From positions 1 through 51,955 of IMG/VR virus record IMGVR_UViG_3300031825_000016: a DNA stretch of 51,955 nt, one strand, 5' to 3'. The notes under the pieces are model-generated. The model had not been told where the DNA came from. It worked only from the letters and a program-made list of their open reading frames with translations, and searched no databases. Shown piece after piece: positions 13,197-51,955 of the stretch. Within the stretch, counting starts at the first letter, position 1. Every line of letters begins with the position of its first letter. The position numbers and the translations under genes were made by a program. Origin of the DNA: a virus.

Positions 13197-13415
13197 TCAC
13201 CGTCCCAACGACAGGACTTTGTTCAAGATGCCAACGGCAAAGGTGATTACAAAGCTGATTCCCAATAGGTCCGTCAGAATGCCTGTGTATCGGGCCACTT
13301 TGGGGTTAAATACGCCGGCTACTTGAATTAAAATCCAACTCACCAAAGCTAGAACCGGGAACATCAGGACTATGCTGCCCTCTCCGCCGAATAGCTTGTT
13401 GAACAATCCTGACAT
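13197..13415 (-). CDS. Small two-span membrane protein, 72 aa
   Basis: Starts ATG at 13415, overlapping the stop of the replication-relaxation gene. Spans at residues 13-33 (GSIVLMFPVLALVSWILIQVA) and 46-66 (LTDLLGISFVITFAVGILNKV), with short basic ends. No family known to me. Two adjacent two-span proteins in an operon with a soluble FtsK-like ATPase recall small membrane partners of plasmid DNA translocases. That analogy is inference. Confidence 0.65.
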   Translation of the reverse strand: MSGLFNKLFGGEGSIVLMFPVLALVSWILIQVAGVFNPKVARYTGILTDLLGISFVITFAVGILNKVLSLGR

Positions 13416-14098
13416 TATGTCTTCGCCTCCTTGATTATTTCAGACAGTAGTTTGACCTCGAAGCGTAAATTGCTCCAGTTTTCCTCATGGATGTGGCGGA
13501 GGACCTTCTGTCGGTAGTTTTCCGTTAGGCAAGTTATTATCACCTTGGGGAACCTGCCAACATGCCTCCACCACCAGTGACCGCCAAGGGTGGTTTCCTG
13601 ACTCTCGAAGAGCTTGTTGTATTTCCTTATCTTGTCAAACTCGCCATGATCTGTTTCCCGTTCCATCTCGATGAAGTACCACCAGATTTCATTTGCCAGC
13701 TTACTTTGGATACCCACCAGGGCGTCGCATTCGAGTATGCCAAAGTCTTTGTGGCGTTCCCAAAGGTAAATCCTCTGGCCTGTGGTAAGCTGTTTCTCGA
13801 ACCATACATAGTGCCAGTTAACATCTACCAGGTGTTCCAACTGGGCGGGTTGTTTGCCGTCGTAATAGATGCTGGTGCTGTGGATACTGAACCGAACTGG
13901 GGCCTTGAGCTTCTTGCGGCCTACCAGTGACGAGAGCCTTGCCTGTGCCTTGCGGAGTCCGGTAGGGAAGGGGAAGTATAGGGTAGCTATTTGCTCAGTC
14001 GTAAGGGCCTTGTGGCGGGCAATGGCGTCAAGGATCCGTTTGTCTCTTTCAGCTCCATAGCGGACCAGGTTAAGCCCGCTTAAATTCGGGGCGTTCAA
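13415..14098 (-). CDS. Replication-relaxation family protein
   Basis: 227 residues, ATG at 14098, overlapping the end of the FtsK-like gene by 28 bases. The N-terminus (about 15-75) is a winged helix: RDKRILDAIARHKALTTEQIATLYF, then QARLSSLVGRKKLKAP. The remainder has LWERHKDFGILECDALVGI and WWYFIEMERET, the expected alpha/beta region of Replic_Relax proteins, which are found beside FtsK-like ATPases on plasmids and integrative elements. It probably binds element DNA, perhaps at an origin or transfer site. Activity unproven. Confidence 0.75.
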   Translation of the reverse strand: MNAPNLSGLNLVRYGAERDKRILDAIARHKALTTEQIATLYFPFPTGLRKAQARLSSLVGRKKLKAPVRFSIHSTSIYYDGKQPAQLEHLVDVNWHYVWFEKQLTTGQRIYLWERHKDFGILECDALVGIQSKLANEIWWYFIEMERETDHGEFDKIRKYNKLFESQETTLGGHWWWRHVGRFPKVIITCLTENYRQKVLRHIHEENWSNLRFEVKLLSEIIKEAKT

Positions 14099-15197
14099 TG
14101 TTAATCACTCCTTTCGATTGAGGGAGGTTTGCAACTTCCCGCCTTGCCTGTTTGATGTCGAAGAACATTGTCTTGACTATTTGGCTGGCGCCGTGCTGCC
14201 ATACCGCCAGACCTGCTACGGGGGTTCCGTCGGCCTTGGTGGGGAGGTTGCAGGCCAAATCGTTACCAAGGGCCATGTCTGAGGTGAATCGGTCGTTTAC
14301 CTTGAAGCATAGGCGCCCATTGAATAGATGGCGCATTTCGGTGAAGGATTCGCTCTTGAATAGCTTTGAGCTGCTTCGCTGGGTGGCTGCTAGGACAAAG
14401 AGTCCGGAACTGCGGCCCAAGAACAGGAGTCGGTGCAGTGCTTCGATTCCTTCCTGGTCCTGAAAGTCCGCCAGTTCATCCAGAATGACGCAGATAACCG
14501 GCATGTTCTCAGGGTGGGGATATTCCTGAATTTTGACCGCTTCATATTTCTCCAGTTCCAACTGCCGGCGGTCCATTTCCTCGTTGAGCTGCTGGAGCAA
14601 CTTCCGGGCAGTCACTTTATCCTGGGCCACAATGGCATGATTCTTAAGGTAGTCGTGTTCCCGCTTCGCTGTGTTGATGATAAAGGTCGCATAGCCTGCC
14701 TGGATACTACTCCATGCCCATTGGTGGATGATGTTTGACTTACCGCCGCCGACAGTTCCCACGCAAAGGATGTGGTAGATCCCATCGCCCAGATCAATCA
14801 CCACGGTTTTGCCTTTGGCGTTGTGACCGATAGGTAGCGGGGCGAACATCTTGCCGTGGTCTGCCGGGTTAAAGGCAAAGGGGATTTTGTCGGGGTGTTC
14901 GTAGGTACAGACGTCCATCCATATGGTTTTGCCCTTGTGTCTGAGTTCTATGGTTCCACCAGTCTGTTCTTCAAAATAATTTAACTTGCCTTCGACGTCC
15001 TTGGCACTGATCCCGGCTGGTAGAGTAAGGGCGAAGAACCAACCGTAGTCTGTTTTCCTCTTTTCGATGATTAGCGGGGTCTGATTGTATTTGGTTTCGA
15101 AGTTTAATGCTTCAAAGGTGTTTAGAAGCCTACCCTGGACTGTGAAGTTGTTCAGCTTGTGGCGGAGTATGTCACCAAACGTGGGACCCTTACCCAC
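14070..15197 (-). CDS. FtsK/HerA-type DNA translocase ATPase
   Basis: 375 residues, ATG at 15197 with AGGAGAGG upstream. Walker A GTVGGGKS lies near residue 150 and Walker B VICVILDELAD near 237. LAATQRSSSKLF and FNGRLCFKV follow, as in FtsK/SpoIIIE/TraB motors. There is no N-terminal membrane domain, so membrane attachment may come from the two small membrane proteins downstream. The gene begins the leftward operon. Such proteins move double-stranded DNA in plasmid and ICE transfer or partition. Phage genomes rarely need one, so this is a likely mobile-element cargo. Confidence 0.85.
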   Translation of the reverse strand: MGKGPTFGDILRHKLNNFTVQGRLLNTFEALNFETKYNQTPLIIEKRKTDYGWFFALTLPAGISAKDVEGKLNYFEEQTGGTIELRHKGKTIWMDVCTYEHPDKIPFAFNPADHGKMFAPLPIGHNAKGKTVVIDLGDGIYHILCVGTVGGGKSNIIHQWAWSSIQAGYATFIINTAKREHDYLKNHAIVAQDKVTARKLLQQLNEEMDRRQLELEKYEAVKIQEYPHPENMPVICVILDELADFQDQEGIEALHRLLFLGRSSGLFVLAATQRSSSKLFKSESFTEMRHLFNGRLCFKVNDRFTSDMALGNDLACNLPTKADGTPVAGLAVWQHGASQIVKTMFFDIKQARREVANLPQSKGVINIERPEFKRA

Positions 15198-17314: not shown

Positions 17315-18445
17315 CTATTGTATCTGTTTTTGCTGGAGCTCAACAATCCTTTTGTTAATTTTCTCTTTCTTTTCAACTCCAAGGTGCTGATATGTCTCTT
17401 TTAAAACTCTAATATCGTGTCCTAGGCGCTCGGCTGCTAAATGATCTAGCACATCATTTTCATACAGCCAAGTCGCATGATAATGCCGAAGAAAGTGCAA
17501 ACGGGTCTTCGGTATTTTTTTTTCTCTAACCAGTTCGGCGAGGTAACTGGAATAACTGTCAGGGCGCATAGGGAAGATAAATTTATCTGCCTTATCCTTC
17601 TTATCAGTAATTTGAACTACCTGAGACTGAGACTCTTTTTTCTTCTTTTTCTTACGGAGCGTAAACCAATCCGGGTTGACCTGTTTTAATAGGTTCATCA
17701 GATAAGGCGCTGTTGCCACATCTCTTAGTCCGTTTTCTGACTTGGTCTTTTTGAGCTCATATTTGCCCTGATCGTTAATTACATAAGCTTCATCCACTCG
17801 AATCGTGCTGTTTTCAAAGTCCAAATCGTTCCACTTTAAGGCAAATATTTCCTCGCGCCGCAATCCACACCAGGCTGCCAGAAGGATAATAGGCTCATCC
17901 CTGGTGCCATTGACGGCATCGAGAATCTTTTTAAATGCTTCTTCATTTTTTGGCACAGTTGAATAATCAACTTTTTCTGCTTTGGGGAGCTTAAGATCAT
18001 TGAATGGGGACCTCTTTTTTAGCGCATCATAGAAAATCGGTCTTAGGCAAGACATAATTCGTCTTACACTCGTTGCTGATTGTTTAGCCAGTAAATCGTT
18101 CATCAGCTTCTTAAGATGCATTTCTCTTAAGTCTTTGAATTTCATTCGCTTAAAAAAGGGCTCATAGTAATTTTTGTGATAGCTCAAGTACAAAACATAA
18201 GTACTTGGGCTATATTTGTTTTTGTGAATTTCGAGCCAGGTTTTGATCCATTCGGAGATTCGATGATTATCAACGTTGGTTAAAGTTCCTTCTTCAATCA
18301 ATTGCTCTAACTCACGCACTGCTTTTTTAATTTCCTTTTCGCTGTGCTTGGTCACGTATTTGTTGATCTTCTTACCGTTTTCATCCCTCCCAACATAAAC
18401 CGTGGCTTGCCAGGTTCCATCTGCCCGTTTTCGAATGCTTGCCAT
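17315..18445 (-). CDS. int: Tyrosine site-specific integrase
   Basis: 376 residues. Residues 1-50 form an arm-binding domain (SIRKRADGTWQATVYVG). A SAM-like core-binding domain spans about 62-150. The catalytic domain has the first Arg in AAWCGLRREEIFAL (near 196), the His-x-x-Arg box in LHFLRHYHATW (near 316) and the nucleophile Tyr in KETYQHLG (near 350). It integrates and excises the phage at attP, which lies immediately downstream. The pair of tandem arm repeats around the tRNA-Pro core fits its N-terminal domain. Confidence 0.95.
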   Translation of the reverse strand: MASIRKRADGTWQATVYVGRDENGKKINKYVTKHSEKEIKKAVRELEQLIEEGTLTNVDNHRISEWIKTWLEIHKNKYSPSTYVLYLSYHKNYYEPFFKRMKFKDLREMHLKKLMNDLLAKQSATSVRRIMSCLRPIFYDALKKRSPFNDLKLPKAEKVDYSTVPKNEEAFKKILDAVNGTRDEPIILLAAWCGLRREEIFALKWNDLDFENSTIRVDEAYVINDQGKYELKKTKSENGLRDVATAPYLMNLLKQVNPDWFTLRKKKKKKESQSQVVQITDKKDKADKFIFPMRPDSYSSYLAELVREKKIPKTRLHFLRHYHATWLYENDVLDHLAAERLGHDIRVLKETYQHLGVEKKEKINKRIVELQQKQIQ

Positions 18446-23373: not shown

Positions 23374-23550
23374 ATGAACCGATGTGAGGACTGCGACAAG
23401 GTTTTATTCGAGCAAAGAATGCCCGTTACCGAAGTGTTTTGCCAGGCAAAGGGCAAAAGAAAGCTCAAGAGTTTAGCGCCTCGGGTGCAATTCAGCATGA
23501 AGGCCCCGGGATGGTGCCCGAATCCAAAAGGCGGTGGATCGGATGAATGA
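23374..23550 (+). CDS. Cysteine-containing small protein, 58 aa
   Basis: ATG with GGGTGCGAGGG upstream. CEDC near residue 4, a lone Cys near 24, and GWCPNP near 47 suggest one zinc site. It lies between PcfK and PcfJ and overlaps the latter by 8 bases. No family recognised. Confidence 0.55.
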   Translation: MNRCEDCDKVLFEQRMPVTEVFCQAKGKRKLKSLAPRVQFSMKAPGWCPNPKGGGSDE

Positions 23551-25105
23551 CCTACCTGATAAAGACTTCCTAGCCCACTTCCCTCCCAAGGTCAGCCAGG
23601 CCATGGTGGATTACGCCAGGGACGTTGCCTTTTCCTGGTCGCGGTACATCTTCACCAGACGCCAGGGGAAGCAGCAGTATGGTTACTGTACCCACTGCCA
23701 AAAGGAGTTCAAAACTGAAAAGCTAAAGCATAACGATAGAGTCAATTGTCCGGAGTGTGGGAGCAGCTGCCTGGTACGGTCCAGCGGGATAAGCCGTAAA
23801 AGGCTGATCGACGAAGCCTACTTTGTCTGGTACGACCGGTCCGGAGTAGACCCGAACACCATAGTCGCCACAGGGGTTTACGCAGTCCGGGACTACCGGG
23901 GCAATTATTACCGGGTTGAAATCCAGTTCGAGACTGCTGCCATGTACGTCTTCGAGCCGGGTAAGCCGAGGATGATTAAGCGGTCGGTATATTACTCCGA
24001 AGAAAAAGATTACTGCATGGTAGGCCGGTGGGAGAAGTGCAGATCAGTGTACTCAATCTTTAATCAAGGCCACATTGCAAATATTCCATCGACCTACACC
24101 CGAGACAGAATCAAAAAGCTCGTTCAGAGCACTCCATTCCAGTACAGTACCTGGGAGGAATACAACCACGAGGATATGACCAGATTCTTTGCCTTGTACG
24201 CCAAATCGCCCTGTATCGAGTATCTGACTAAATTGGGCATGACTGACCTGGTAGAGGCTAAGCTGAGAGGCTACAACACCATGGGGGCGATCAACTGGCG
24301 GGGGAAGACGCTGCTGAAGGTCCTGAAACTCAGCAAGCAGGAGTTCAACGAGATCCGGAAGCGGAAACTGCATGTCAGCTTTTTCTTACTTCACATCCTG
24401 CAGACCTCCCGGAAGCTGGGATGGGGGTTGAGTTTGGACGATGCTTTGGAAATTGAAGCTTGGGATTCTGGCTATGGCCATTATTTCAAGGACTTTGTAA
24501 AGCTGACAGTTTACGCTCCGGCAAAGAAAATCCTAGCTTATATGACCAAGCAGTACAAAAAGGACAAAAAGCAATATTACCAAAAAGCCAGTGTCCTCAT
24601 TACCTGGCGGGACTACATATCGGATGCCATAAAACTAGAGATGGATGTGACCTCAGAGCAGGTGCTATTCCCGAAAAGTGCCTGGAATGCTCATCAGAAC
24701 ACAATCAAACAGATACAAATCAAGGCGGATGAAGAGCTGAAACGCCAGGTCGCAGAGAGGAATGCCAAGCTAAAAAATTATCGGTTTAAATATAAAGGCC
24801 TGCTCATCCGGGCCGCGGCCACCGCTGATGAATTGATCGAAGAGGGTAAAGCACTGAACCATTGTGTCGGTGGATATGCGCGAAGACACGCCAATGGAGA
24901 ATGTACTATCTTGTTTATCCGCAAAGCTTCAGAACCTGACAAGCCTTTTTTTACGGTAGAAGTCAGAGGGGACCATATCGTGCAGATCCAAGGACATAGC
25001 AATAAACAGCAACCCACTGCGGATGTATGGGAGTTTGTCGAAGCCTTCAAGGCTCAGAAGCTGACCAAGAAAAAGCCCAAATCAAGAGTTAAGATCCCAG
25101 CGTAA
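23543..25105 (+). CDS. PcfJ-like protein
   Basis: About 520 residues; ATG 23543 preferred to GTG 23534. A zinc ribbon lies near residues 45-75 (CTHCQKEF, CPECGSSC). The PcfJ signature is near the C-terminus: GKALNHCVGGYARRHANGEC, ILFIRKASEPDKPFFTVEV, VQIQGHSNKQ. PcfJ and PcfK are paired on conjugative plasmids and many Bacillota phages. Biochemical role unknown; the zinc ribbon and catalytic-looking NHCVGG box suggest an enzyme acting on nucleic acid. Confidence 0.85.
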   Translation: MNDLPDKDFLAHFPPKVSQAMVDYARDVAFSWSRYIFTRRQGKQQYGYCTHCQKEFKTEKLKHNDRVNCPECGSSCLVRSSGISRKRLIDEAYFVWYDRSGVDPNTIVATGVYAVRDYRGNYYRVEIQFETAAMYVFEPGKPRMIKRSVYYSEEKDYCMVGRWEKCRSVYSIFNQGHIANIPSTYTRDRIKKLVQSTPFQYSTWEEYNHEDMTRFFALYAKSPCIEYLTKLGMTDLVEAKLRGYNTMGAINWRGKTLLKVLKLSKQEFNEIRKRKLHVSFFLLHILQTSRKLGWGLSLDDALEIEAWDSGYGHYFKDFVKLTVYAPAKKILAYMTKQYKKDKKQYYQKASVLITWRDYISDAIKLEMDVTSEQVLFPKSAWNAHQNTIKQIQIKADEELKRQVAERNAKLKNYRFKYKGLLIRAAATADELIEEGKALNHCVGGYARRHANGECTILFIRKASEPDKPFFTVEVRGDHIVQIQGHSNKQQPTADVWEFVEAFKAQKLTKKKPKSRVKIPA

Positions 25106-28852: not shown

Positions 28853-28870
28853 TTAAGGGGATGGTTGATT

Positions 28871-29770
28871 GTGTCTAAACAAATTTTAGTTACCCACTCA
28901 GACTTCGACGGCGCTGCCTGCGCTATCGTTTTTAAGACCTGGTTCCCGGAAGGCACCTGCTACAGTGAAAACTATGACACGGTAGACAACCGGCTCAGAG
29001 ACATTCTCCAAAATGATATACTCCCGGATCAATTATACATTGCGGATATTTCCCCCCAGGACGTAGAGGTAATTAGCCTGCTCACTTTCATCAATCAGAC
29101 AACTAATTGCAAGGTTCACCTTTTCGACCATCACAAAACGGCTATGGGACTCTGCGAGTACAGCTGGGCGATAAGGCTAGATAGTTCGAAATGCGGGGCG
29201 CTCCTGCTGTTTGACTGGATAATGAGGAACCGCATAGCATCCAGATTAACTGAAGACATCGAAAAATTGGTCTGGCACGCCAATGACTATGACCTTTGGA
29301 AGCACGAGGATCCGCATTCAAATACTCTGAACCAACTCCTGCGTTGCTTAGGATTTGATAGATTTGTAGAACGCTTTTACTGGAATTCTTCGCTGCAATT
29401 ATCAGAGGCAGAAGAACTACTTATCGAACTTGAACAGGAAAAGCAAGACCAATATATCCAGGAAGTAATGGAGCGATCAACTGAATGGTTCTCCGATTCC
29501 CAAGACCGGCCTTATGCTCTGTGCTTTGACGAGCAATATCATTCCCAGCTAGGACATGCGATTCTCGAAAATCAGGAGTTAGACGAGTGTGAGTATGTCG
29601 TAATGGTGGACCTTAAAGACCGGAGAGTCGGGCTTCGCAGCCGTAAAAATGGAGTTGATGTTTCGGAGATTGCAAAGCGGTACGGTGGAGGCGGCCACCA
29701 AGCTGCAGCAGGGTTTCAGCTTAGTCCGCTGATTATCGGAAAACTAAATACGCTTTTATTCGGAGAATAA
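28871..29770 (+). CDS. DHH/DHHA1 phosphoesterase
   Basis: About 299 residues; GTG 28871 preferred to TTG 28865 on distance from AAGGGG. Motifs: HSDFDGAACAIVF (10-22), IADISPQDVE (near 56), DHHKTAMG (near 86), NDYDLW (near 137). DHHA1 box RYGGGGHQAAAGF lies near 270. Such enzymes degrade short RNAs, pAp or cyclic dinucleotides with Mn2+. In an early phage operon with a Tad1-like gene elsewhere, a role against nucleotide-signal defence is possible but speculative. Confidence 0.9.
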   Translation: MSKQILVTHSDFDGAACAIVFKTWFPEGTCYSENYDTVDNRLRDILQNDILPDQLYIADISPQDVEVISLLTFINQTTNCKVHLFDHHKTAMGLCEYSWAIRLDSSKCGALLLFDWIMRNRIASRLTEDIEKLVWHANDYDLWKHEDPHSNTLNQLLRCLGFDRFVERFYWNSSLQLSEAEELLIELEQEKQDQYIQEVMERSTEWFSDSQDRPYALCFDEQYHSQLGHAILENQELDECEYVVMVDLKDRRVGLRSRKNGVDVSEIAKRYGGGGHQAAAGFQLSPLIIGKLNTLLFGE

Positions 29771-40864: not shown

Positions 40865-42133
40865 TTGAGAGAAAAGCGCAGCCTTTTCCAAACTGTATTC
40901 GGTGTATTGCCGTGGGCGGGAAAACATTTTAGCCGCCTGCAGATGCTCAACGGATACTCCCCGACCTTCACGCCCTGGGGAGGAAAGCCCTATGAGGCGG
41001 ATGTTGTGCGGTCGGCTGTAGATGCCGTGGCCAGGAATGCAGCTAAGCTAAAGGCAAAGCATATTCGCCGCATCGGCAAGGACATAACTCCGATATCAGG
41101 GCAAGTAGAAAACTGTTTGCAGATCAGACCCAACCCGAACATGAATGCCTACGATTTTTTCTATAAGATGGTCACGACCCTGATGATTGACAACAATGCC
41201 TTTGCCTATCCGGTTTGGCAGGGGACACAACTTATTGCAATATGGCCTATTAACTGCACGATAGCTGAGTTCCTAGAGGACGATAGCGGGGAAATCTTTG
41301 TCAGGTTTTACTTCGGGGTGGGTAAACAAGCAATCCTGCCTTACAGCGAGGTCATTCACCTTAGGCGCCACTTCTATAAGGGGGATCTCACCGGCGAAAA
41401 CAACAATGCCATCAACAACACACTGGATGCGGTATTCACCTCAAACCAGGGCATAAGCCAGGCGATAAAATCCAGCGCAAATCTTCGAGGTATTATCAAG
41501 TACCAGGGCATGCTCAAGGACAAAGATATAACCGACAACCGGAACCGCTTTGTCAACGAGTTCATGACCGTCAATAATAACGGCGGCATAGCGGCCCTTG
41601 ATGCCAAGGCGGAATATAAAGAGCTTACGAATGACCCCAAGATAATCAATGCCCCCCAGATGAAGGAACTTCGGGATAACGTCTATCGCTACTTCGGAGT
41701 CAATGAAAAAATCATCATGGGTAACTACAACGAGGACGAATGGGATGCGTTTTATGAATCCACCATTGAGCCCCTGGCCGTGCAACTGTCCTTGGAATTC
41801 ACCTCGAAGCTATTTACCGAGCGAGAGCGGGGCCATGGGAACGAGATTGTATTTGAGTCGAACCGCTTGCAGTACGCCAGCATGAAGACCAAGGTCCTGA
41901 TGGTTGAAAAGATGGTGCCCATGGGCTTGTTGAGTACCAATGAGGCCCGGGAAATATTCAACCTCGCTCCGGTCGAGGGCGGGGAAAAGCGGATCATAAG
42001 CTTGAATTTTGTGGATGCCAACAAGGCTAATCAATACCAATTAGGAGAGGGGGACAATGGTAGTGGTGATGGAAACAACCAAGGAACTACGCCTACTGGA
42101 ACTGAGGGCGGTACAAACAGCACCGGACAGTAA
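40865..42133 (+). CDS. Portal protein (HK97 type)
   Basis: 422 residues from TTG with AAGGGGGTG upstream. VRSAVDAVARNAAKLKAKHI, LQIRPNPNMNAYDFFYKMV, NNAFAYP and YFGVNEKIIMGNYNEDEWD are the usual HK97 portal features. The C-terminus is Gly/Asn/Thr-rich and overlaps the protease gene by 77 bases. It forms the dodecameric vertex for packaging. Confidence 0.93.
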   Translation: MREKRSLFQTVFGVLPWAGKHFSRLQMLNGYSPTFTPWGGKPYEADVVRSAVDAVARNAAKLKAKHIRRIGKDITPISGQVENCLQIRPNPNMNAYDFFYKMVTTLMIDNNAFAYPVWQGTQLIAIWPINCTIAEFLEDDSGEIFVRFYFGVGKQAILPYSEVIHLRRHFYKGDLTGENNNAINNTLDAVFTSNQGISQAIKSSANLRGIIKYQGMLKDKDITDNRNRFVNEFMTVNNNGGIAALDAKAEYKELTNDPKIINAPQMKELRDNVYRYFGVNEKIIMGNYNEDEWDAFYESTIEPLAVQLSLEFTSKLFTERERGHGNEIVFESNRLQYASMKTKVLMVEKMVPMGLLSTNEAREIFNLAPVEGGEKRIISLNFVDANKANQYQLGEGDNGSGDGNNQGTTPTGTEGGTNSTGQ

Positions 42134-42959
42134 TGAAATGATCGTCGAAGGAAGGGCGATCGTTTTTAATTCTCCGACCGTGCTATGGGAGTATGACGGA
42201 ATCAAATATTACGAGGTTGTGGACTCGAAGGCCCTGGACGGTTGCGACATGTCGGATGTTGTATTTAGGTACAACCATTCTGAGGACGTCATGATCATGG
42301 CCAGGACCAGAAAAGGATCTCTGCAGTTAATTAAAGATGACATCGGGCTTAATATCAAGGCCAAGCTATTCGACATTGCACCAGCCCGAGACCTATACAC
42401 CCTGATCAAAGAGGGTGCCATTGACCAAATGAGCTTTTCCTTCGTTGTTGCGGAGGACAGTTATAACCAGGACACCCGGACCAGAACCATCTTGAAGTTC
42501 AAAAAACTGTATGATGTGGCTGCCGTGGATACGGGAGCCTATCAGGATACATCCATTTCCGCAAGGAGTTGGGCAAAGGCGGAGGCCGAGCGCGAGCACA
42601 AGGCGATGGAGGTCGCCGAATTGCGGAAACGGGTTGCCGAAAGGCGTGCACATCCACTCAATAAGAGGCAGGCGGCGGATACTACCTGTCCACATACCTG
42701 TTGTGTGATGTGCAAACAAGCAGACTGCAATCAACGAATGGATTGCTGCCAAGCCTGCATGATGAATTGCCAAGAGATGTGCCAGGAATGCGAACAGACT
42801 TGCAAAATGGGATGTTGCACGATGTGCCAGGCCCAATGCCAAACAGTATGTGCGGCATGTAGTAAGACTGACTGCTCTATGCACCAGGTAATGAGTGAGC
42901 GCAAAGCGCTGGAGAGCGCCGAGATCAGAAAGAAACTCATTGCCAAAACCTATCTTTAA
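42057..42959 (+). CDS. Prohead protease with 19-cysteine C-terminal domain
   Basis: 300 residues. ATG 42057 with GGAGAGGGGG upstream; ATG 42069 is possible. Residues 10-175 form an HK97-type S78 protease: MIVEGRAIVF, catalytic His in RYNHSED (near 74), Ser in MSFSFVV (near 126). Residues about 211-275 hold 19 Cys in 65, spaced C-C and 3-4 apart as along helices, with several His and Met. The last 25 residues are a normal charged helix. The enzyme should process the capsid N-terminus. The Cys-rich part is not a normal feature of this family and looks metal-binding. Confidence 0.9.
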   Translation: MVVVMETTKELRLLELRAVQTAPDSNEMIVEGRAIVFNSPTVLWEYDGIKYYEVVDSKALDGCDMSDVVFRYNHSEDVMIMARTRKGSLQLIKDDIGLNIKAKLFDIAPARDLYTLIKEGAIDQMSFSFVVAEDSYNQDTRTRTILKFKKLYDVAAVDTGAYQDTSISARSWAKAEAEREHKAMEVAELRKRVAERRAHPLNKRQAADTTCPHTCCVMCKQADCNQRMDCCQACMMNCQEMCQECEQTCKMGCCTMCQAQCQTVCAACSKTDCSMHQVMSERKALESAEIRKKLIAKTYL

Positions 42960-42978
42960 AAACGAAAGGGGTAAGACC

Positions 42979-44181
42979 ATGTACGAAAAGAGATTTACCG
43001 AAATTGCCGCCCGCAAGTTAGAGATCCGCGCCATGCTTGAGGGTAACGAGCAAGTTGATATGGACAAGATCACCAAGGAGCTCCAGGATCTTGAGGCTGA
43101 GGAAAAACAACTGCGAGCCCGGATTCAAAAAATCGAGGAACTGAGGGGTGGAACACCTGGTGCGGTACCGCCTGCAGGAACAGTACCCGGCACCACTCCT
43201 CCCGCTGGAGAATTCCGTTCTGTCGAAACCTTCGGGCAGCTCCCCGAGAATCGTGATGCCAAAACAAAGGAAGAGGCCGAGAAGCGCGGTAAGGCCCTCA
43301 AGGAAAATCGGTCCGTAACCATTGGCTCTTCCAGTGTCATCTCTCCCCGGCCCCAGGCCACCGATATTCGCCCCTACTTTAATCAGGTATCCAGCCTGAT
43401 TGACTTGGTGACCACCAGGACACTGCAAGGCGGCGAAAGCTTCAGGCAGCCATACCTTACCGGGTGGGGCACCGGAGATTATAAGACTGAGAGTACGGAC
43501 TACGCTGACTCCGATGTCACCTTCGACTATGCTGAAATGCTCAAGGCCAAAGTCACTGCCTACTCCGAAGATTCGGAAGAAGTTCTGAAATTACCATCCG
43601 CTGATTATGACGGTGAAGTTACCCGGGGCATAACCATCGCCTTGAGGAAGAAAATGACTCGCGAGATCTTGGTTGGTACCGGCGCAACGAATCACCTTGC
43701 TGGTATCTTCTCTGCCGCTGCCACCGCGATTGACGCCGCAACAGACATTGAGCTTATCGCCATCGATGAAACAACCCTGGACGACATCATCTATAGCTAT
43801 GGCGGCGACGAGAACGTCGAAGATGTTGCGGTCCTGGTCTTGAACAAGAAAGATCTGAAAGCCTTCGCAAAACTGCGTGATGCTGATGGCCAGCGGATCT
43901 ACAAGGTTGTCGCTAACGGCAACACCGGTACCATTGACGGAATTCCTTATGTCATCAACTCCGCTTGCAAGGCTGTAACCGATGTGTCTACGAACGCCGG
44001 GGAGTATGCCATGGCATACGGTCCCTTGTCCAATTACATGGTCACCCTCTTCGCAGACATCGATATCCAGCGGTCCACCGATTACAAATTCAAGCAGGGC
44101 ATGATCGCTCACAGGGGCTCCGTGTTCGCCGGCGGCAACGTGGTATCCAAGAACGGCTTCCTCCGTGTGAAGAAAGGTTAA
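42979..44181 (+). CDS. Major capsid protein (HK97 fold)
   Basis: 400 residues; ATG 42979 after GAAAGGGGTAAGACC, not the upstream start inside the protease gene. Residues 1-105 form a charged helical delta/scaffold region (AARKLEIRAMLEGNEQVDMD, LQDLEAEEKQLRARIQKIEE) and a Pro/Gly-rich linker, expected to be removed by the protease. Residues about 110-400 are the HK97 fold: VSSLIDLVTTRTLQGGESF, KMTREILVGTGATNHLAGI, DYKFKQGMIAHRGSVFAGGN. Confidence 0.93.
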   Translation: MYEKRFTEIAARKLEIRAMLEGNEQVDMDKITKELQDLEAEEKQLRARIQKIEELRGGTPGAVPPAGTVPGTTPPAGEFRSVETFGQLPENRDAKTKEEAEKRGKALKENRSVTIGSSSVISPRPQATDIRPYFNQVSSLIDLVTTRTLQGGESFRQPYLTGWGTGDYKTESTDYADSDVTFDYAEMLKAKVTAYSEDSEEVLKLPSADYDGEVTRGITIALRKKMTREILVGTGATNHLAGIFSAAATAIDAATDIELIAIDETTLDDIIYSYGGDENVEDVAVLVLNKKDLKAFAKLRDADGQRIYKVVANGNTGTIDGIPYVINSACKAVTDVSTNAGEYAMAYGPLSNYMVTLFADIDIQRSTDYKFKQGMIAHRGSVFAGGNVVSKNGFLRVKKG

Positions 44182-50212: not shown

Positions 50213-51955
50213 ATGTTAGTTTCAATCGGCGGCACTTCAGTGCTAACCCAAAAGAACAGCATATCCATCGACGATGCAATCGAAGAACGGTCAACCGCAT
50301 CTTTTGTTGTGGTGGATGTAGATGGCTCCCAGCATTACCAAAAAGGCCAACAGATAACGATCCGGGGGGATGGCGGCGGGGTATTCGCCGGGGTTATTGA
50401 TACTGCAGTAGAAGCACGCATACCGAATCTCGGCGGCTTGTTCCATCAAATATCCGGGGTCGATTGGCACTATCTGTCCGATAAGCGTATCGTTGCTAAA
50501 GCCTACGCAAATACACTTGCAGGGGACATCGTGAGGGATCTAGTAGCCTCCTACCTGGCCGACGAAGGGATAACCCATACAGAATCCAGCTCTAGCTTTT
50601 TTGTGCTACCTTTTCTAGAAGTAGGCATGGATTATGCGGTAGATAGTATCCAAGACGGTCCCGCGATAATTGAGGCGGTCTTTAATTACGTGTCAGTTAC
50701 TACGGCGCTGGATTCACTGGCCGAGCGAACCGGTTTTTGGTGGTATATCGATAAGGATAAGATCCTGCATTTTAAGTCCCGCGCTACCTATATGGCCCCC
50801 TGGGCGTTGACGGATGATGAAATTTCAAATGGCAATGTTGCCAAAGGGTCATTAACCATTGAGCACGGAAATCCAAAGTACCGGAATCGGCAGTATATCA
50901 TTGGCGGCAAAGATATTACCGATTTACAAACGGAAATTAAAAAGGGAGATGGCAGCTCACAGTCTTTTGTCGTTGGGTTTCCGGTGGCCAAAGTTCCGAC
51001 CATAACAATAGACGGAGTGACACCCCAAACCGCGGGAATCCGGGGCGTGGACACGGGTAAGAATTGGTACTGGGCAAAAGGCGACAGCGTTATATCGCAA
51101 GAACAAGGCGCCACCCCATTAACGGCGTTACAAACACTGCACATCGTCTATCAAGGTGAGTTTAGTATTGTCGTAATAAGTCAGGACGGCGTTGCGGTTC
51201 AGGACAGGGTAACCCTTGAGGGCGGTACCGGATATGTTGAGGATGTAGCCAATGAGCCCAATATAACTACCAGAGAAGCAGCATTTCAAAGTGCATCGCA
51301 AAAGCTGTCCAGATATGGTGTAATCGGCCGGAAAATAAAATTCAAGACTCGAAAGGCTGGTCTCGCACCGGGACAACTACTACCCATAAATCTGTCGTTG
51401 CACAACTTAAATGATGCAGAAGCGCTAATCGAGTCCGTATCTATTAGCACCACTGATCCAATAGTTTGGTATACGATATCGGCGGTAGAGGGTCCGGTAA
51501 CAGGATCGTGGGCAAAACTGTTTTACGCCATGGCGACAAATAACCAGGCGTATATAGTACGCGAAAATATCAGCGAAGAACAGGTGCTGGTTACCCTAGG
51601 CACATTTTCAAAGACTTGGATTGAGGGCGAAAATCCAAACATCTTTAGGGCTGTCTTGCCTGGGGCTGCCTTATTCCCCGGAGCTTCAACTTATCCACAA
51701 TTTGACCAAGCGCTAAGAGTCCGGTATATGGCTTGGTTTAACGGAGCAACGGAACTGGGGAGAAAAGCAATCACACAGCAAACTGGGAATTTGGTGTCTA
51801 CTACTTATCTATCACCCTTCGAGGCCAATGTAACTATTACCCATTTAGGGTGGTTTGGGGGCATTAAGTCCACGAGCGAAGCGGGTACGGGGGTCTTGGT
51901 AGACTATCAAGCATATGCGAAAACCAAGACCTCGCTTGAGGCAATCCAGATAGAT
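50213..51955 (+). CDS. Tail hub / minor tail protein, N-terminal part (continues at 1)
   Basis: ATG 50213 lies 16 bases after the tape measure stop, with GGCGGGAG directly before it, so translation may be coupled. The frame runs to the window end and on to 270 across the joint: 588 residues in all. The N-terminus (LVSIGGTSVLTQKNSISIDD, GQQITIRGDGGGVFAGVIDT) resembles hub proteins of the gp27/gp44 kind. LAERTGFWWYIDKDKILHF (near 180) and KYRNRQYIIGGKD fit this group. It probably combines the distal-tail and hub roles, since no other candidate lies after the tape measure. Confidence 0.75.
   Translation, partial: MLVSIGGTSVLTQKNSISIDDAIEERSTASFVVVDVDGSQHYQKGQQITIRGDGGGVFAGVIDTAVEARIPNLGGLFHQISGVDWHYLSDKRIVAKAYANTLAGDIVRDLVASYLADEGITHTESSSSFFVLPFLEVGMDYAVDSIQDGPAIIEAVFNYVSVTTALDSLAERTGFWWYIDKDKILHFKSRATYMAPWALTDDEISNGNVAKGSLTIEHGNPKYRNRQYIIGGKDITDLQTEIKKGDGSSQSFVVGFPVAKVPTITIDGVTPQTAGIRGVDTGKNWYWAKGDSVISQEQGATPLTALQTLHIVYQGEFSIVVISQDGVAVQDRVTLEGGTGYVEDVANEPNITTREAAFQSASQKLSRYGVIGRKIKFKTRKAGLAPGQLLPINLSLHNLNDAEALIESVSISTTDPIVWYTISAVEGPVTGSWAKLFYAMATNNQAYIVRENISEEQVLVTLGTFSKTWIEGENPNIFRAVLPGAALFPGASTYPQFDQALRVRYMAWFNGATELGRKAITQQTGNLVSTTYLSPFEANVTITHLGWFGGIKSTSEAGTGVLVDYQAYAKTKTSLEAIQID
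51710..51955. repeat. Terminal overlap, right copy
   Basis: Same 246 bases as 1-246 except T at 51837 (C at 128). Confidence 0.93.

Follow-up and report, generated by a model that had tools for sequence, protein, structure and literature searches.

The prohead protease encoded in the window (the whole stretch of viral DNA analysed here, 51,955 nucleotides, IMG/VR record IMGVR_UViG_3300031825_000016) carries a core with 19 cysteines between two copies of its tail helix, and a distant clade of phages has a different cysteine-rich module at the same site. We propose, with a probability of roughly one half, that the insert is a metal-thiolate module binding Cu(I) or Zn, fused between the protease and its tail helix.

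The window encodes an intact HK97-type prohead protease

Family matches identify 42057-42959 as the open reading frame of an intact HK97-type (Peptidase_S78) prohead protease. PF04586 (Peptidase_S78) matched residues 23-171 with an E-value of 2.2e-30 and 106 bits (cut-off 21), PHROG 80 (head maturation protease) matched at 6e-42, and TIGR01543 matched at 1.9e-16, its 60.5 bits lying just above the cut-off of 59. H74 and S126, invariant over 74 homologues, fit the catalytic His and Ser of Peptidase_S78 and presumably play these roles. The full-length AlphaFold2 model, built with 74 sequences, showed a confident protease fold; Foldseek returned herpesvirus assembly proteases as its best PDB matches, with the KSHV protease first (E 7.6e-4) and T4 gp21 ranking lower. 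The gene order portal-protease-capsid is that of annotated prophages, and PF05065 matched residues 122-398 of the major capsid protein (2.6e-46). Relatives point to Bacillota as the host. The neighbourhood of the protease gene revealed no metal genes. An antisense ORF of 227 aa (42393-43076, minus strand) is open across the Cys-rich insert, probably by chance.

Other parts of the window were also annotated. The two ends of the window, positions 1-246 and 51710-51955, are identical over 246 bases except for a single mismatch (position 128); the genome is therefore probably circular or terminally redundant and about 51.7 kb long. An FtsK/SpoIIIE-type ATPase adjoins a Replication-relaxation protein (13415-15197, minus strand), as in conjugative or plasmid-like elements, and the same phage encodes an integrase (17315-18445). 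A PcfJ-like protein, of a family known from conjugative plasmids, lies at 23534-25105 (plus strand), and a DHH/DHHA1 family phosphoesterase-like protein lies in the replication region (28865-29770, plus strand).

Table 1. Features of the protease locus, with positions in the window.
Feature	Residues	Position	Strand	Basis or remark
Portal protein		40865..42133	+	Overlaps protease start; relatives L266-L270 adjoin S78 proteases
Prohead (head maturation) protease, 300 aa, stop included		42057..42959	+	PF04586, PHROG 80, TIGR01543
Peptidase_S78 catalytic domain	23-171	42123..42569	+	PF04586
Tail helix copy 1, KAEAEREHKAMEVAELRKRV	174-193	42576..42635	+	Aligns to the single tail helix of L206, L205, L126
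Linker	194-210	42636..42686	+	Without counterpart in near relatives
Cys-rich core (63 residues, 19 Cys)	211-273	42687..42875	+	Cys count and spacing
Predicted Cys-lined helix 1	224-249	42726..42803	+	AlphaFold2, insert alone and full length; Cys one-sided
Two 23-residue pseudo-repeats, common CCxxCxxxCxxxCxxC	229-251, 252-274	42741..42878	+	Little in common besides Cys
Predicted Cys-lined helix 2	255-270	42819..42866	+	AlphaFold2, insert alone and full length; Cys one-sided
Tail helix copy 2 and native C-terminus, ERKALESAEIRKKLIAKTYL	281-300	42897..42956	+	Aligns to L206 and others
Major capsid protein with N-terminal scaffold-like (delta) region		42979..44181	+	PF05065

A duplicated tail helix flanks the cysteine-rich core

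Near relatives of the window protease are 205-209 aa long, as against 300 aa in the window protein, and their last part is a charged tail helix with KTYL or a similar sequence at the very C-terminus; overall identity to the window protein is about 77-79% for L125/L001 and about 60% for L126/L002. Both KAEAEREHKAMEVAELRKRV, which precedes the Cys core, and ERKALESAEIRKKLIAKTYL, which follows it, aligned to the same tail helix of these relatives. The two copies scored 43 against each other, with a shuffle mean of 22 and none of 5000 shuffles scoring as high, and a helix around the first copy (residues 172-198) was present in the full-length model. The tail helix was thus duplicated, with the linker and the Cys core between the copies; the gain took place on the window's branch. 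The total gain, about 95 residues, exceeds the core alone because the tail helix, of about 20 residues, is duplicated on both sides of it. A preliminary description of this DNA had reported 19 Cys within about 65 residues at 42688-42885. The count was confirmed in residues 211-273 and the limits lie close to those in Table 1, but the gain as a whole is larger. Cys63 is the only cysteine of the protein outside the core.

The preliminary description had also raised the prospect of a spurious frame extension. Such a reading, be it a wrong frame or a chimeric assembly, draws on an insert that is unique at sequence level and comes from a single contig. Past the core, however, the reading frame runs into KTYL, the native C-terminus of the family, the gene that follows is intact and a comparable insert occurs in three independent contigs; we find an artefact hardly credible.

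The closest relatives, L001, L289 and L302, contain a partial, shorter duplication of the tail helix (KALDDA..KALDDA), which suggests that tail duplication predates the insert and that the tail was already prone to it. An expansion without Cys was seen in the L149/L150 protease, the 67-residue tail of which consists of charged-helix near-repeats (VERLRSELKEN...).

Cysteines of the core follow a helical spacing

Successive cysteines of the core are separated by gaps of 4 (seven times), 3 (five times), 1 (three times), 5 (twice) and 6 (once). The gap of 2 (CxC) is absent, and the lack of i,i+2 pairs was significant (p = 0.00045). Cys periodicity peaked at 94 degrees per residue (p ~0.0005 over all angles), a value in the helical range that none of 4000 shuffles matched. 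On both predicted long helices the cysteines were one-sided, with R = 0.79 (p = 0.0002) and R = 0.77 (p = 0.001), all taken at the best angle tried. These results uphold the earlier reading of a spacing that fits thiol-lined helices rather than zinc fingers. Extra Met and His had been noted as well: residues 210-277 contain 8 Met and 10 Gln, but only 2 His.

Apart from Cys, the two pseudo-repeats within the core have few residues in common, and synonymous differences occur in 3 of their 6 aligned Cys codon pairs. A search of the insert for a DNA-level tandem repeat detected none, indicating that it is not a recent DNA repeat expansion. Taken together, these observations suggest that the pattern is old or imported, and it looks maintained at the protein level.

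AlphaFold2 was run on the insert alone as a single sequence, with no alignment. The best of five models contained helices at residues 214-219, 224-249 and 255-270, with a mean pLDDT of 72 and core blocks at 80-86; the other four models had values of 51-63. The preliminary description would have been refuted by a predicted structure without clustered thiols; the single-sequence model, which is helical, did not refute it, although confidence was lower at full length: in the full-length model the insert pLDDT dropped to 46-67, and the second long helix ran into the C-terminal helix. Foldseek searches with the insert model found no relative in the PDB and nothing meaningful among viral structures. 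A helical hairpin, modelled with moderate confidence only, is a plausible rather than an established fold for the insert.

The insert has no match among known families

Searches with the window insert against viral contigs, phages, plasmids, PHROGs, NCBIfam, Pfam and the PDB yielded no credible match, although the BLAST low-complexity filter may hide matches in part of these searches. No Pfam or NCBIfam family, zinc fingers and metallothioneins included, was matched at E <= 10. In the PDB, the insert found no Csp and only a weak BAZ2A PHD finger (E 1.1, chance level). Desulfoscipio geothermicus carries a prophage protease related to that of the window, and 113 genomes of its class gave only matches at E 0.05-0.17, three of five with internal stop codons. 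A seven-Cys spacing pattern run over viral contigs mostly matched what looked like low-complexity repeats or out-of-frame poly-Cys and was discarded as uninformative.

Membership in the copper-storage (Csp/DUF326) family, with which the preliminary description had compared the insert, was not supported. Capture of a true member of this family from a host would account for the helical spacing and for a Cys count equal to that of BsCsp3 (19; PMC10155185), and the host of a close relative does encode a DUF326 protein. However, the PF03860 (DUF326) profile found nothing in the window even at E <= 10, hmmscan gave none either, and the pairwise score was not significant. Whereas the DUF326 protein of D. 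geothermicus, used as a positive control, reached Csp3 in the PDB at 1.2e-10, the insert reached no Csp. Its 63 residues with two long helices also contrast with the ~108-136 residues and four helices of Csp. Capture from a host is thus disfavoured as very improbable, and the resemblance to copper storage is one of analogy, not of membership, because the DUF326/Csp profile finds nothing.

An iron-sulfur cluster domain would fit the many cysteines and the origin of the relatives, mostly anaerobic Bacillota. Against it, no ferredoxin or other Fe-S family in Pfam or NCBIfam matched the insert, the helical spacing is continuous and 19 Cys lie far above the usual cluster motif, which leaves this domain type improbable.

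A second lineage gained a different cysteine-rich module at the same site

S78 proteases were gathered from viral contigs and GTDB genomes, and tails were read in roughly 390 ORFs, a number that includes many near-copies and repeats of one contig (one subset comprised 224 distinct tails). Bacillota phages are over-represented in this sample, as are relatives that short peptide patterns can retrieve. Nearly all tails had 0-2 Cys, and the window insert was absent from its close relatives. No further Cys-rich tails were found among host-genome prohead proteases and the best phage and plasmid matches. Among the surveyed homologues, only L321, L323 and L353 (IMG/VR contigs 3300028864_000101, 3300028678_000052 and 3300002022_000009), from a distant clade at ~31-33% identity, carry a comparable insert. 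The earlier view that usual prohead proteases lack an insert of this kind is thus nearly correct, with these three as the exceptions in the survey.

Their tails (...MDCNNCSCANCTRCCSSCSSSNC...RQC...) contain 9 Cys at the place matching the window insert, with the spacing CxxCxCxxCxxCCxxCxxxxC. This insert, in the same tail segment, looks unrelated to that of the window; it is Ser/Asn-rich, and a helical pattern is not evident by eye. A search of the PDB with the L321 insert gave NADH-quinone oxidoreductase subunit I at E 0.57, which is chance level. L322, a close relative of the three, has a plain tail. In a maximum-likelihood tree of the protease domains two changes were needed, the starred branches forcing two, and 0% of bootstrap trees permitted a single gain; Cys-rich inserts in this tail hence arose at least twice. 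All 9 Cys were kept in the three phages despite nearby substitutions and an adjoining length change. Per phage pair, the 9 Cys codons had 2-4 synonymous and 0 replacement changes, and the other 60-71 tail codons had 8-13 replacements. Replacement changes are confined to the other tail codons, so the cysteines are constrained in this lineage. Tree and codon comparisons thus showed that the lineage of L321, L323 and L353 acquired its own, different Cys-rich module at this site independently and that selection acts on the cysteines of that module. The different, non-helical-looking spacing means that the two inserts may not do the same thing. The independent gain suggests that metal binding or redox sensing at this place is useful to some phages.

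These data also bear on whether the tail is simply a permissive site for duplication and insertion, in which a Cys-rich segment with little function of its own is tolerated. In homologues that lack Cys inserts the tail measures anything between about 23 and 79 aa, near relatives have the partial duplication described above and the window insert is without homologue, all of which a passenger would explain. It would not explain the strong helical order of the window cysteines, the retention of Cys in L321, L323 and L353, or the gain of the same unusual composition twice independently. We therefore consider a tolerated passenger rather unlikely.

Proposed function of the insert

HK97-type head maturation is a textbook pathway, in which the protease is usually pictured as an enzyme and nothing more, which enters the prohead, makes its cuts and then digests itself. 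The bacterial cytoplasm is reducing, and in the host cytoplasm the 19 close thiols of the insert, together with Met, would hold soft metal ions in a thiolate cluster, with Cu(I) or Zn(II) as the likeliest ligated metals. In the proposed arrangement, a thiol-lined helical hairpin is fused between the catalytic domain and the terminal tail helix; the cluster would fold this hairpin and could link protease copies. It would act while the protease sits inside the prohead, so that packaging or timing of the protease would be affected rather than catalysis, and it would disappear when the protease digests itself. The HK97 protease cleaves the scaffold domain of the capsid protein before expansion (PMC3185693).

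Alternatively, oxidised thiols could form disulfides that lock or cross-link proteases in the prohead, making maturation depend on redox state and not on metal. Thiols so densely placed at i,i+3 and i,i+4 could pair inside one helix or from one helix to another, and the CC pairs and two independent gains would suit such a switch. A reducing bacterial cytoplasm speaks against it. In addition, Csp thiols, which are placed on helices in a similar way, stay free of disulfides (PMC10155185). A redox switch is in our opinion a possible but minor alternative to the metal-thiolate reading.

More tentatively still, the maturation protease of some phages may have acquired by fusion, twice independently at the same site, a thiol module that senses metal or redox state, so that the metal or redox state of the host would gate the passage from prohead to packaging-competent head; we regard this wider scheme as doubtful. 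No cysteine-rich prohead protease was found in the literature searched, and a thiol cluster in the protease, gained twice, would, if true, be an undescribed chemical input into head maturation in that literature. The insert would also offer a compact, naturally fused thiol-rich helical module, directly testable for metal binding.

Comparison with known systems

The window protein shares its catalytic domain, gene order and native C-terminal tail with HK97-family prohead proteases (Peptidase_S78, TIGR01543, PHROG 80), from which it differs by about 95 additional tail residues, 19 Cys and the duplicated tail helix. Like the L321, L323 and L353 proteases, it has a Cys-rich insert that separates the protease domain from the terminal tail helix; unlike theirs, which is Ser/Asn-rich with 9 Cys and of separate origin, its insert combines 19 Cys with helical spacing. 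Bacterial metallothioneins are likewise short Cys-dense modules, but the window insert has a helical Cys order instead of CxC-rich loops and no Pfam match. Csp1 and Csp3 (DUF326, PF03860) resemble it in their many cysteines, in Cys number and in helical spacing, whereas the insert has no profile, sequence or fold match to them, is half their length, is fused to a protease and has one short and two long predicted helices in place of a four-helix bundle. Csp3 proteins are thiol-lined helical bundles in which 16-19 reduced Cys fill with Cu(I) (PMC10155185), and by analogy they may be a useful model for how the window insert works.
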